Shown here one piece after another: positions 6,562 to 31,038 of a stretch of DNA of 33,292 nucleotides. Where the stretch lies: the NCBI GenBank assembly GCA_001799565.1, contig MGTS01000010.1, positions 1 to 33,292 of the forward strand, read 5' to 3'. A program made the position numbers and the translations under genes. The first letter of the stretch is position 1; each line of letters opens with the position of its first letter. Under the pieces are notes generated by a model. It ran no database searches. It had not been told where the DNA came from and was given only the letters and a program-made list of their open reading frames with translations. This DNA is from Elusimicrobia bacterium GWA2_51_34. GTDB lineage: Bacteria; Elusimicrobiota; Elusimicrobia; Elusimicrobiales; UBA9959.

Positions 6562-6596
6562 ACTGGCCACTGGTCACTGATCACTATCCACTGACT
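6562..6596. repeat. Heptanucleotide array between the TldD-like genes
   Basis: Five consecutive 7-base units, all beginning ACT (for example ACTGGCC, ACTGGTC, ACTGATC), run directly up to the stop codon of the upstream tldD-like gene. Related bases (GGTAATCAGTTACT) precede the array. It fills about half of the 102-base gap to the next gene. Confidence 0.85.
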
Positions 6597-8281
6597 TATT
6601 TATCATACAGCGGCGGCTCAAGCACCGGCGGCTTTTCCTGCGACTTCTTAGACTTTTCCACCTCTATTTCGGACATCAGTATGCTTGGCGCCACGCCTGA
6701 AACCGGCACCCAGCCCGACTCCGCGCCGCAGGTGCCGTTAAAAACGGCGGTATCGTCGGCGGCAGCCATTATCTTACTGAAGTTAGCTATCGGCGTGCCC
6801 ACAATATCCACGCCCCTCACTATTTCATCGGGACGCCCGTCCGTGTAAACGCGGTAAACCAGAAGCGGCAGTACCTTGAAAGACTGTCCGCTGCCGCGAC
6901 CGGTGTAGGTGAACCCGCCGGAGATATCGTTAAATACCAGGCCGAAAGTTTTGCCCTGCTTTTTGCATTCCTCAATAAGCATTTCACGGAGTCTGGAGTA
7001 TGGCACGGTTTTTGAAGCCTCAACTATGGTGTTGCCCATGCGCGAGACAACCTGGTTGCCGGCCGACTTGCGGCCATGGCCGTTTGACGATGCGAAATCA
7101 CGTATGGGAGAGCGGCTCATTAAAAAACCTTTAAGCACGCCATTCTCTATCAGGTTAACACGCTGGGCTTTTACGCCTTCATCATCGTAGCTGTAATGGC
7201 CGCGCAGCACCGTGCCGTTAAACGACCTTATATTCGGGTCGTCGTAAACGGTTATAAAATCCGCTGTAATTTTCTGGTTAAGTTTTTTTGCGAAAGTCTG
7301 GCCCGAATCTTCCAGCTTCTGGCGATGGCCTTCAAGGCGGTGGCCTATAATTTCGTGGAAATACACGCCGGCGGGTATGGCGTTAATTATGGCGGGGCCG
7401 CTGTAAGGCTCAACAAGCGGCGCGCTTTGAAGCGCCTTAAGTTCGGTTATTGAGCGATCCATGTCCTTTAAAATTACCTCGTCGGAAGGGAGTTCGCCGG
7501 GCGTTTCGCCGTAATACGACATGTCGCGCACAAGTTCCATGCCGTCCTCGGTGCGCGAAGTTATAGTGTAACCCATACTCACATAAACATTCCCGGTTTT
7601 TACACGCGTGCCTTCGCTGTTGACTATATAGCGGTTATCGGACGAAACACGGAACCAGGCCTGCCCCTGGTAAATAAAGGGATATGGTAAAAATTTCCCG
7701 GTCAACTTGTTGAGCCTGGCCTTCCAGGCGTCTTGATCAAAAGACGGGAACACAGCCGTTTCGTAAAACACTTCAGCCTTGGCGGGAGAGAAATCCGGCG
7801 AGGGGTCCTCTTCGCTTGCCGTAATGGCCTTATTCATCTTCACTTTGGTGAAGGCCTCGTATGAACGCTTGACGGCGGAGTCGGTATGCTCCCACACGCG
7901 GGCCCGGATGGCATTTTCATCGTTTTCCATCGGTATATATTGCGTGTAGCTGACCGGATAGTTGAAAGAGGCATCCCCCTTTATCTGATGAGTATTATCC
8001 AGCTTAAAATCGTTAAAGCGGGCATCTATGTCAAAGCGGCGGCGTTCGCTTTCATGCTCACCGTCTGTAGCGCCCATGAAAGACGATACGCCGTACTGCT
8101 TCGTGTCTATCACTTCATAGCCCAGAAAATAAAGCGGCGTTTTTTCAACGTTTTTCATAACACCGAATGATCTGTCAAGCTCTTTTGTGAGGGCGTTCAT
8201 AACCGCGTCGGTTTTAGCGTCCGAAGCAAAAGCGGGAACCGCCAAAGCAAGTATTGCGCAGATAGAAAATGTTTTACACAT
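6596..8281 (-). CDS. Secreted TldD-family zinc metalloprotease
   Basis: The 561-residue product has a signal peptide (MCKTFSICAILALAVPAFA) and is a TldD-type peptidase. The zinc motif HEIIGH is at about residues 309-314 (GVYFHEIIGHRLEGH). The third ligand is the Cys of NGTCGAESGWVPVSGVAPS at about 518, matching the C-G-x-x-x-x-x-VPVGVGQP context of E. coli TldD. Cytoplasmic TldD works with TldE to degrade unfolded peptides; here both family members carry export signals, so the activity is placed in the periplasm or outside. The start has GGAGG seven bases upstream. Gene order (intact copy first, metal-less copy second) and co-orientation suggest one operon and a heterodimer. Confidence 0.9.
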   Translation of the reverse strand: MCKTFSICAILALAVPAFASDAKTDAVMNALTKELDRSFGVMKNVEKTPLYFLGYEVIDTKQYGVSSFMGATDGEHESERRRFDIDARFNDFKLDNTHQIKGDASFNYPVSYTQYIPMENDENAIRARVWEHTDSAVKRSYEAFTKVKMNKAITASEEDPSPDFSPAKAEVFYETAVFPSFDQDAWKARLNKLTGKFLPYPFIYQGQAWFRVSSDNRYIVNSEGTRVKTGNVYVSMGYTITSRTEDGMELVRDMSYYGETPGELPSDEVILKDMDRSITELKALQSAPLVEPYSGPAIINAIPAGVYFHEIIGHRLEGHRQKLEDSGQTFAKKLNQKITADFITVYDDPNIRSFNGTVLRGHYSYDDEGVKAQRVNLIENGVLKGFLMSRSPIRDFASSNGHGRKSAGNQVVSRMGNTIVEASKTVPYSRLREMLIEECKKQGKTFGLVFNDISGGFTYTGRGSGQSFKVLPLLVYRVYTDGRPDEIVRGVDIVGTPIANFSKIMAAADDTAVFNGTCGAESGWVPVSGVAPSILMSEIEVEKSKKSQEKPPVLEPPLYDK

Positions 8282-8586
8282 AATACCTCCGTAAGATAAC
8301 AGGGGTCAGGGGTATAGGGTTTTCCGCCAGAGGCGGACCCGCCGGCTGTTTGGCGGGAGGGTTTTCCGAAGGAATTCCTTATTTCTACCCGCTACCCTTT
8401 CGCCCTACAGCCCCGCCGAAACTGTCCGGCGTAAAAAACGGGCTGCGGCTGAAAATAAATTATACGAATAAAACGCCTTTCATTGCGGGGTTGTTATAGC
8501 CGCCCATAGGCTGACTGTTTTCGGCTATAAGCTTTTAAGAATCTCCTGGACGCGCCTACCGCGCATGGCGTAAAACATATGGTGTT
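8282..8586. other. Intergenic region with heptads and hairpins
   Basis: No gene is visible. Units CAGGGGT, CAGGGGT and ATAGGGT run from 8300 to 8320 with period 7. Two adjacent hairpins follow at 8323-8337 (TCCGCC/GGCGGA) and about 8338-8358 (CCCGCC/GGCGGG), flanked by GGGTTTTCC on both sides. Weak period-7 units (CTACCCG, CTACCCT) recur near 8386-8399. A stem of TAGCCG with CGGCTA occurs near 8498-8529. The promoter of the downstream tldD-like gene should be here but I cannot place it. Confidence 0.6.
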
Positions 8587-29880: not shown

Positions 29881-30954
29881 ATGCTCAAATGGATTGAGAT
29901 TGACCTTAAGATTCTGAAGAACAACGTCCGCGCCGTTAAACGCGTTTTGAAACCCGGCGTAAAGCTTATGGCGGTGGTAAAAGCCGATGGCTACGGCCAT
30001 GGCGCCGAGGCGGTATCGCGCGCGGCCCTTTCAAGCGGCGCCGATTGCCTGGGGGTGCTGACAGCGGATGAAGGCTCCATTTTAAGGCAAGCCCTGCCCA
30101 ACGCGGAAATAAATTTATTAGCTCCGTCCCTGCCGGAAGAAACGCGGGCAATAATAAAAAACCGCCTTATCCCTACAACGGATTCCCTCGCGTTCATAAA
30201 AGCCCTGAACCGCCGCGCGCGCGGCGCCTACCCGTATCACATAGATATAGACTCCGGCCTTGGCCGCTGGGGAGTGAGCCCCGGCAAGTTTGAGGCCTTT
30301 CTAAAAACAGCCGCCGGTTTCAGCGGGGCCCGCCCGGTTGCCCTCTCAACGCACCTTGCCTACGCTCCCAGAACAAACATGACCGAGGCTGAGGAAAAGC
30401 TGGCAGTTTTCAAAAGGCTTGGCCTGAAAGCGAAAACTATTTTTGCCGGGCTTAAACTGCACGCCGCCAACAGCGCGCTTCTTTGCGATTTGCCTCACTG
30501 GCAGCTTGACATGGCACGCATAGGAAACCTGATTTACGGTATTTATCCAACGGATGTTTACAGAGAAAAAGCGAAAGGCACCCCCATAATAGGTCTTGCC
30601 AGGCCCTGGAGGTTTTACTCAAGGATAATTTCTATCCGGAAAGTAAAAAAAGACGAAGATATCGGTTATTCAAGCGCCTACGCCGCTTCCAAAAACATGA
30701 CCATAGCAACAATACCCGCGGGCTACTCGGACGGGCTTAGCATGGAACCGGCCGAACGCTCAATAAAAATAACGGCTGGTTTTGTTTACTGGGGCCTGAT
30801 AAACGGAAAAAAAGCTTTCTTCGCGGGCAAGTGCGGCATAGCCCACAGTCTGCTTGATGTTACAAACATACCTGAAGCTAAAGTTGGCACGCCGGTATCC
30901 CTGCACGTGCGTCGCACCGCCGCCAACGCCAGGATACCCAGAATATACAAATAG
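29881..30954 (+). CDS. alr: Alanine racemase
   Basis: The 357-residue PLP enzyme makes D-alanine for peptidoglycan. The N-terminal barrel carries WIEIDLKILKNNV and the PLP-binding Lys in MAVVKADGYGHGA; ALSTHLAYA, LHAANSALL and MARIGNLIYGIYP are further family marks. The C-terminal domain has the expected catalytic Tyr region IGYSSAYAA, PAGYSDGLS and a final RIPRIYK. The usual MDQ-type substrate-pocket motif is replaced by AGKCGIAHSLLDVT, which is unusual. I chose ATG 29881, directly before LKWIEIDL; the frame is open from 29833 with other ATGs, including 29851. No ribosome-binding site is evident. The gene converges on the PBP gene, which uses the same pathway's product. Confidence 0.92.
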   Translation: MLKWIEIDLKILKNNVRAVKRVLKPGVKLMAVVKADGYGHGAEAVSRAALSSGADCLGVLTADEGSILRQALPNAEINLLAPSLPEETRAIIKNRLIPTTDSLAFIKALNRRARGAYPYHIDIDSGLGRWGVSPGKFEAFLKTAAGFSGARPVALSTHLAYAPRTNMTEAEEKLAVFKRLGLKAKTIFAGLKLHAANSALLCDLPHWQLDMARIGNLIYGIYPTDVYREKAKGTPIIGLARPWRFYSRIISIRKVKKDEDIGYSSAYAASKNMTIATIPAGYSDGLSMEPAERSIKITAGFVYWGLINGKKAFFAGKCGIAHSLLDVTNIPEAKVGTPVSLHVRRTAANARIPRIYK

Positions 30955-30958
30955 TGGG

Positions 30959-31038
30959 CAGTGGCCGGTGAACAGTGGACAGTAAAGAATAATCTAAAAC
31001 TCCCCAACTGACCACTGGCCACTAATCACTGACCACTT
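30959..31038. repeat. Paired inverted heptad arrays between alr and the PBP gene
   Basis: The left array (30959-30986) has CAGTGGC, CGGTGAA, CAGTGGA and CAGTAAA, starting five bases after the alr stop. The right array (31007-31038) has ACTGACC, ACTGGCC, ACTAATC and ACTGACC, ending at the PBP stop. The arms can pair, so the element may also act as a terminator for both convergent genes. The right array uses the same units as 6562-6596. Confidence 0.9.

Follow-up and report, generated by a model that had tools for sequence, protein, structure and literature searches.

Heptanucleotide arrays in the gene gaps of an Elusimicrobia genome as probable dispersed palindromic elements

Gaps between genes in the draft genome of Elusimicrobia bacterium GWA2_51_34 are often filled by arrays of degenerate seven-base units, and the locus described here raises the question of whether such arrays arise where they stand, are kept as structures at gene ends, or arrive as copies of elements found elsewhere. 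The window, by which we mean the whole stretch of DNA analysed, is 33,292 bases long and constitutes one entire contig (MGTS01000010.1) of a 2.63-Mb draft genome in 43 contigs. Periods were counted in 917 kb of this genome (35% of 2.63 Mb) and in 455 kb of a sister species, G002 (G and L numbers are our labels for genomes and loci). We consider it probable, with some reserve, that the arrays are dispersed palindromic repeat elements spread by a trans-acting copying or inserting process and decaying afterwards. An element would comprise approximately 60 to 130 bp, with two inverted arms flanking a short core, each arm a run of degenerate units of 7 bases (in some families 8 or 10). The process would respond more to this architecture than to any single sequence and would be active in some lineages and inactive in others, while gene gaps would offer tolerated landing places in which mutation decays the elements after landing.

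Periodicity, unit families and anatomy

Ten intervals with a seven-base period had been listed in a preliminary description of the window, and lag 7 was the strongest among lags 4 to 12 in all ten (shuffle p ≤0.005 each, values that are post hoc because that description had selected the intervals). Five had been described as paired arrays of opposite sense (20365-20466, 21561-21647, 26962-27084, 28946-29024 and 30959-31038), and every one of these palindromes exceeded 150 shuffles; a sixth inverted pair was found at 19688-19790. RNA folding gave z-scores of -3.9 to -7.5 for six window palindromes. The three stop codons at which arrays had been said to end (6596, 18908 and 31039) were all correct, and we agree that the host of the arrays is not a cyanobacterium. 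Two of the ten intervals, 26962-27084 and 28946-29024, do not fall in intergenic gaps; they lie inside the mfd open reading frame (ORF).

The excess at lag 7 extended well beyond the window. Non-overlapping arrays in the 917-kb sample numbered 135 at period 7, 41 at period 8 and 16 at period 10, with 2, 11, 7, 5 and 11 at periods 5, 6, 9, 11 and 12, respectively. Counted by lag over 777 kb, 64 segments reached a score of at least 12 at lag 7 and none did so at lags 4, 5, 9, 11, 13 or 17, so that lag 7 far exceeded the control lags genome-wide; multiples of seven and eight were likewise elevated. Seven is dominant, yet eight and ten are real, and the period is therefore not constant as had been claimed; the window itself contains a 10-base array at 29711-29832. 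When units were clustered at one mismatch, 166 of the 192 arrays of period 7, 8 or 10 fell into 27 clusters of at least two members and 26 were solitary. The largest clusters were AAGTCAC (33 arrays), AACCAGT (20), AAGCCAT (15), AATAGCG (10), ACCCTAT (10), ACAGTGG (9) and one 10-base cluster (9), bearing out across loci the many unit families first described in the window. Some of the approximately 27 unit clusters are probably subfamilies, and by extrapolation we estimate several hundred elements in the genome. The 455-kb sister-species sample held 37 period-7 arrays, AATAGCG leading with 13. Period-6 arrays were a separate matter, with 59 in that sample versus 11 in the 917 kb of the own genome.

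Arms were often paired and inverted, and their polarity was nearly fixed within each family. With both genomes pooled, and with weak pairs kept and no chance control applied, eight 7-base families gave 190 pairs in one sense versus 20 in the reverse, and the 8- and 10-base families 62 versus 13 (GCTGAAGC among them 12 versus 7). GTAACCG gave 3 versus 8; its units and those of GCTGAAGC resemble their own complements. Between the arms, a GGA..TCC core, in full form near TAAGGAACTCCTTA, occurred in 54 of 236 loops compared with 3.7 expected from shuffles. It was common in several families (GCCATAA 23/44, AGGGTAT 9/29, AGCGAAT 8/38, TAGGCTGG 7/27), occurred also in others (TCAGAAG 3/28, GAGTAAA 3/9, 10-base 1/14) and was absent from the loops of GTCACAA (0/20), AGTGGTC (0/10), GCTGAAGC (0/11), GTAGTAG (0/4) and GTAACCG (0/2).

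Whole elements, arms and core together, recurred across the genome. Seventeen GCCATAA elements, selected as clean (alignment A1), could be aligned end to end across loci and species, seven of them with GCTTTA- as second unit. Non-self matches at E ≤1e-4 were obtained for 136 of 163 array sites in 917 kb, a search made with 150-nt flanks and so counting other repeats too. Ten aligned pairs were inspected, of which one was without arrays; array pairs included alignments of 106 bp at 87%, 102 bp at 87%, 112 bp at 79% and 81 bp at 89% identity. Array-bearing copies of 81 to 133 bp and approximately 79 to 89% identity thus occupied unrelated loci with flanks that were mostly unalignable, and we therefore regard them as dispersed repeats and not as separately born arrays. 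Like miniature inverted-repeat transposable elements (MITEs), they are dispersed, non-coding and bounded by terminal inverted repeats, and they share the state of a high-copy extragenic palindrome with repetitive extragenic palindromic (REP) sequences and REP doublets forming hairpins (REPINs). No conserved tag of the kind found unpaired at one end of REPs (GTAG or CGTC) was seen in the GCCATAA alignment, which covers a single family and few flanking bases.

Placement at genes and comparison with a sister species

Gap occupancy was scored with 23 listed units in gaps of at least 40 nt, between crude gene calls (ORFs of at least 90 aa, longest start taken). Units occurred in 175 of 483 gaps in the 35% of the genome sampled; of 483 shuffled gaps 4 were occupied, and of 483 length-matched coding pieces 5. 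By orientation, units were present in 142 of 345 tandem, 18 of 71 convergent and 15 of 67 divergent gaps. Arrays mostly filled their gap, those in convergent gaps having a median distance of 0 nt to either stop. In 89 of the 141 tandem gaps without a tie, the array lay closer to the upstream stop than to the downstream start (sign test, p 0.002); the median distances were 10 and 22 nt, respectively. Edges fell within 10 nt of the stop or beyond it in 75 tandem gaps and likewise for the start in 46, and arrays reached or overlapped the stop codon in 45 of 142 and the start in 27 of 142. The association with gene ends raised by the preliminary description is thus present as a modest skew.

In the sister species, which shares a mean nucleotide identity of 81.9% over 102 kb of alignments, inspection gap by gap often found an array at the same place with a different spelling. 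An orthologous interval in G002 was available for 35 of 170 strict array sites; the best family there was another one in 20 cases, the same in 4, none in 9 and unassignable in 2. From G002 to the own genome, 15 of 46 sites could be compared, with 8 other, 3 same, 1 none and 3 unassigned. Orthologous sites therefore mostly carried another array instead of the ordinary unique sequence that had been named as the contrary outcome. Among 52 orthologous gaps, both species were occupied in 27, only the own in 10, only the sister in 3 and neither in 12 (odds ratio 10.8, p 6.7e-4). The association of sites persisted when the cut-off was relaxed (p 0.003), and with either of these cut-offs when only tandem gaps were counted (p 0.02 to 0.03). 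When family sets were compared in the 27 doubly occupied gaps, 20 shared none and 7 shared one, so that the 37 occupied gaps of the own genome with a sister counterpart divide into 20 with no shared family, 7 with a shared one and 10 empty. We read these sequence comparisons as rapid turnover, which would take place where elements are tolerated or favoured, with a minority retained. At the gap between alr and the penicillin-binding protein (PBP) gene, replacement of the arms around a conserved core was considered and set aside: the window core resembles another AGTGGTC-type element, whereas that of the sister species resembles the AGCGAAT/AGGGTAT type. Given these differing affinities, replacement of the whole element is the better reading, as judged by eye.

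Arrays were also carried by the mfd ORF in the window (26962-27084 and 28946-29024), in which Mfd domains were detected. One of the two sits in a linker, and in-frame arrays occurred there in other family members too. Among the 28 genomes of 30 from which this linker was recovered, 8 had a lag-7 score of at least 10 (G000, G002, G003, G004, G006, G007, G015 and G017), with several different units, one of which was shared by G003 and G006; the remaining 20 scored 2 to 8, a few marginally over shuffles. In-frame arrays mean that the elements reshape proteins as well.

Weighing dispersal against other origins

Several results weigh against dispersal and turnover as we have set them out. No mobiliser was identified in the families searched, which were Y1_Tnp and RVT_1 only, and no target-site duplication was found in filled/empty pairs inspected by eye, none of which was clean at approximately 82% identity, the sister species being too diverged for clean empty sites. 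The unit list and its cut-offs were derived from the same genomes that were then counted. At the strictest unit cut-off (0.85) the association of sites between species was not significant (odds ratio 2.1, p 0.26, 2 of 16 the same). The 7 gaps of 27 that keep a family, compared with 1.8 expected by chance, indicate that some elements simply persist, and two "same" cases of the reverse direction fall in intervals scored "other" in the forward direction because only the best-scoring family was compared. Some long pure arrays, such as one of 116 nt consisting mostly of TTACTGG, resemble recent tandem expansion. Finally, the Mfd linker may merely tolerate any insert.

The strongest competing explanation, which we hold to be possible though doubtful, is that a hairpin at the gene end terminates transcription or protects mRNA, with structure under selection, sequence free to vary and families exchangeable. 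Higher occupancy of tandem gaps, the skew toward stops, the correlated occupancy between species and the strong predicted RNA folds all suit such a function. The skew fits termination or 3' protection and also an avoidance of promoters and ribosome sites, which would produce such skews too, and the correlation between species is the one that fails at the 0.85 cut-off. Arrays also stand inside the mfd frame, and no compensatory double change was found at 13 predicted pairs in the single family aligned (GCCATAA). A terminator consensus scan of 14001-33292 was no guide, with 39 found and 30.7 ± 6.0 in shuffles.

Growth in place, by slippage or by hairpin-templated copying between arms, would let each site extend and re-spell its own array. 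Tandem units, inverted arms, the few long pure runs and the conservation of sites with changing units are all compatible with this; we nevertheless judge it unlikely. In 183 elements, neighbouring units exceeded random units of the same family in identity by only 0.008 ± 0.004 (0.023 ± 0.009 at lag 3), and units in opposite arms by 0.015 ± 0.006 with no register peak. The lack of compensatory double changes in GCCATAA likewise argues against hairpin copying, the unit repertoire is common to loci and species, and whole elements are shared with their cores. With neighbours hardly more alike than random family units, local slippage at gene ends, one process proposed in the preliminary description, is not supported as the main one. 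Each unit looks like a separate, imprecise copy of its family word, the pattern that elements would leave if they first spread and later decayed.

How the arrays are distributed among relatives bears on what might spread them or let them accumulate. Among 294 genomes of the phylum, arrays of three exact GTCACAA units were found in 5, every one a member of the own genome's family. A search for 18 bases of AGCGAAT array with one mismatch allowed was positive in 8 of 61 genomes including the own, with 0 for the reversed pattern. The GCCATAA model gave 26 to at least 74 matches in G000, G002, G004, G010, G015 and G019, 8 in G001 and 1 or 2 in G011 and G016 (counts by pattern and by covariance model R1 include both strands of palindromes); the remaining 28 of the 37 genomes in the family gave no match, and neither did 24 genomes of the next family. 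Family sets overlapped strongly, genomes tending to have several unit families or none. Samples from individual genomes were mostly in accord with this: no lag-7 array was found in sampled members of genera g4, g7, g10, g12 and g13, or in 100 kb of G045. Array status rests for most genomes on samples of 5 to 60 kb, and array-positive sampling is inflated for G004, G010, G015 and G019 because several of their stretches were chosen near known array matches. Outside the phylum, at least 118 stretches contained three exact TCAGAAG units; they were spread over many phyla, with many from cyanobacteria, and 80 such loci that were examined held heptamer arrays of many further spellings. A degenerate pattern that takes in both AGTGGTC and AGCGAAT (AGYGRWY) was present in 13 of 23 genomes hand-picked from these 80 loci versus 5 of 23 for the reversed pattern, with the reversed control exceeding the pattern in G297 and G319; the two-family pattern in distant genomes is suggestive, not strong.

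We think it rather unlikely that the elements form one architecture-defined class of mobile palindromes, in which any inverted arm pair of fixed polarity built from 7-, 8- or 10-base units would be read as a hairpin and copied by a single trans-acting system, with many spellings coexisting as families that replace each other at gene ends and an Mre11-type nuclease, where one remains, holding them in check. If true, such a class would explain why heptamer arrays with overlapping spellings occur in distant phyla. Improbable as well, in our estimate, is a permissive state in which palindromes of whatever origin build up once an Mre11/SbcD-type hairpin nuclease has been lost. In Escherichia coli, SbcCD cleaves hairpins and impedes palindromes. 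An SbcD-like match was missing in 10 of 12 array-positive genomes (G003, with a weak hit to a YaeI-like phosphodiesterase, was counted as lacking), and 15 of 23 array-negative family members had one at E ≤1e-3, often weak. Two of the 15, in G032 and G013, were opened and were phosphoesterase genes overlapping a Rad50/SMC-like ATPase gene. The SbcD cut-off was passed in only 3 of 61 genomes, so that most of the 15 matches are weak; no match was obtained in eight array-negative genomes or in 20 of the 24 from the next family, and G012 and G020 have both arrays and a match. By genus, positives divided into 6 lacking and 1 having, and negatives into 2 lacking and 3 having, which are too few, and array status itself depends on the short samples noted above. 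At L303 and L307, in genera without arrays, a divergent Mre11-like phosphoesterase gene overlaps an SMC/Rad50-like ATPase gene.

That the arrays are REP- or REPIN-type elements moved by the REP-associated tyrosine transposases (RAYTs, family Y1) of the genome is very improbable. Y1_Tnp was present in 30 of 37 family genomes, with six in the own, versus 3 of 24 in the next family, and in all 12 array-positive genomes. It was, however, also present in 18 of 23 array-negative family members, and by eye none of 22 loci from nine genomes was bordered within approximately 230 nt by arrays of listed units (one upstream side was not visible). In 2 of 22, a listed unit stood no more than 900 nt from the match, which does not exceed the genome's background (163 strict sites over 917 kb). 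Other inverted repeats, unrelated to the heptamer arrays, flank the RAYT genes at L242-L261, L033 and L084 (AAAAGGTACCAGGTACCTTTTT is one example); other inverted repeats at some RAYTs have likewise been reported (Di Nocera 2013, PMC3733652). A short tandem run of ATAATTCTCC also lies at L242.

RNA intermediates have reportedly been proposed for small dispersed repeats of Nostoc, and hairpin RNAs could serve a resident reverse transcriptase as template, but such copying is extremely improbable here, no RVT_1 match having been found in the own draft genome or in G006 and G010, all of which have arrays.

Relation to described repeats, and the features of the window

The open-licence literature searched yielded no description of such elements in this lineage. 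Heptanucleotide short tandemly repeated repetitive sequences of cyanobacteria and small mobile palindromic repeats of Nostoc reportedly occur together; to our knowledge, inverted heptamer arms around a core are no part of either. In a survey with SPADE, tandem heptamers were the most abundant of the surveyed repeats between genes, with no clear clue to function (Mori 2018, PMC6344855), and those arrays resemble the present ones in their period of seven, intergenic position and wide occurrence. Paired palindromes, dispersal and turnover distinguish ours from them as described there. In two species of Xanthomonas, GGGAATC arrays form 70 and 75 convergent inverted pairs (Rehm 2015, PMC4692102), and the inverted layout, which the preliminary description had considered distinct, hence has a precedent. 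Those arrays are also heptameric, mostly intergenic and nearer the upstream gene, but as far as that account goes they consist of a single G-rich, quadruplex-forming unit, unlike the many, mostly non-G-rich units, cores and 8- and 10-base relatives found here; the six main heptamers given above do not match GGGANTN. TAACTGA of Beggiatoaceae (169 sets in direct and one in indirect orientation, mostly directly upstream of start codons; MacGregor 2015, PMC4679880) likewise forms intergenic heptamer arrays common to distant phyla with no mechanism evident; as described, and unlike here, it is one unit, and related heptamers are rarely repeated. REPs, REPINs, bacterial interspersed mosaic elements (BIMEs) and tagged palindromes (Di Nocera 2013, PMC3733652; Bertels and Rainey 2011, PMC3116915) are comparable in high copy number, in tandem and convergent gaps, in having several families per genome and, for some, in lying inside repair genes. 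As those sources describe REPs and REPINs, the present elements differ in that no bordering RAYT was found and in the build of the arms, each of which repeats a short unit and exceeds the 20 to 40 bp of a REP. Apparently undescribed in the literature consulted is a genome in which paired arrays combine many spellings and unit lengths, near-fixed polarity, dispersal of whole elements and different spelling at sites shared with a sister species. An array-rich genome, a sister with the same sites but for the most part another spelling, and array-poor relatives make the origin of the sevens a feasible comparison. It asks what gene or state sets array-rich genera apart from array-poor ones, and whether elements jump between sites or mutate where they stand.

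The arrays of the window are listed in Table 1. Covariance model R1, which matched the element at 21557-21647, was built partly from that element.

Table 1. Heptanucleotide and related arrays along the 33,292-base window
Positions	Strand	Array	Context
6520-6600	.	ACTGGTC/GGTTACT-type, 7-base	Between genes 4808-6493 and 6596-8281; strongest at 6562-6585; edge at stop codon 6596
8296-8400	.	Weak AGGGTAT-type units	Upstream of gene 6596-8281; palindrome not significant (p 0.59)
10050-10254	.	GCCATAA-type units	Within a 59-bp tandem duplication adjoining a tRNA gene; palindrome not significant (p 0.087)
17967-17987	.	Short ACCCTAT-type units	Lag-7 interval
18882-18909	.	TTTGCAC-type, single arm	Edge at stop codon 18908
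19688-19790	.	GCCATAA-type, palindromic	Contains 19760-19787
20365-20466	.	Paired GTAACC-type	Sister-species orthologous gap: AGCGAAT-type array
21557-21647	-	GCCATAA-type palindromic element, core TATAAGGAAACTCCTAAAAA	Sister-species orthologous site: GCCATAA family too
26962-27084	.	GTCACAA-type, palindromic, with second dispersed insert	Inside mfd frame; sister-species linker: AGCGAAT-type units
28946-29025	.	TCAGAAG-type, palindromic	Inside mfd frame; no listed unit at sister-species site
29711-29832	.	Palindromic element of 10-base units (AGCAACGGAA type)	Between divergent mfd and alr
30955-31038	.	AGTGGTC-type, palindromic	Fills convergent alr/PBP gap; sister species with another unit type

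A second dispersed insert (CTGGCCGTTTGTGGGCCAGAGGCC...GAGACGGCACCTCCAGAGG) lies inside GTCACAA arrays at window positions 27023-27069, at L115 (approximately 7280-7330) and at L036 (approximately 19440-19480), a case of nesting of elements. Two other kinds of repeat were encountered. One is an insert at L032 10791-10882 with terminal repeats CCCACCACCTGCTT / AAGCAGGTGGTGGG and ATCAT on both flanks, a site that is empty in the sister species; it is MITE-like, with a 5-base duplication. The other, a 120-bp dispersed repeat beside arrays (L070 3353-3472 and L040 12145-12264, 90% identical), has no visible heptamer structure.

An Rfam scan of the window at gathering scores returned one tmRNA and one tRNA and nothing else. 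The tmRNA gene lies at 25552-25903 on the minus strand, in a region 94.6% identical in the sister species, and the tRNA gene at 10271-10342, also on the minus strand. At 14105-16300, a 731-aa ORF contains degenerate repeats of approximately 34 aa, encoded by 102-bp DNA repeats and resembling tetratricopeptide repeats by appearance. The final 93 bases of the window (33200-33292) recur with 100% identity over 49 to 93 bases at 15 other contig ends of the draft; this high-copy repeat, at which the assembly is broken, is probably the end of a mobile element.

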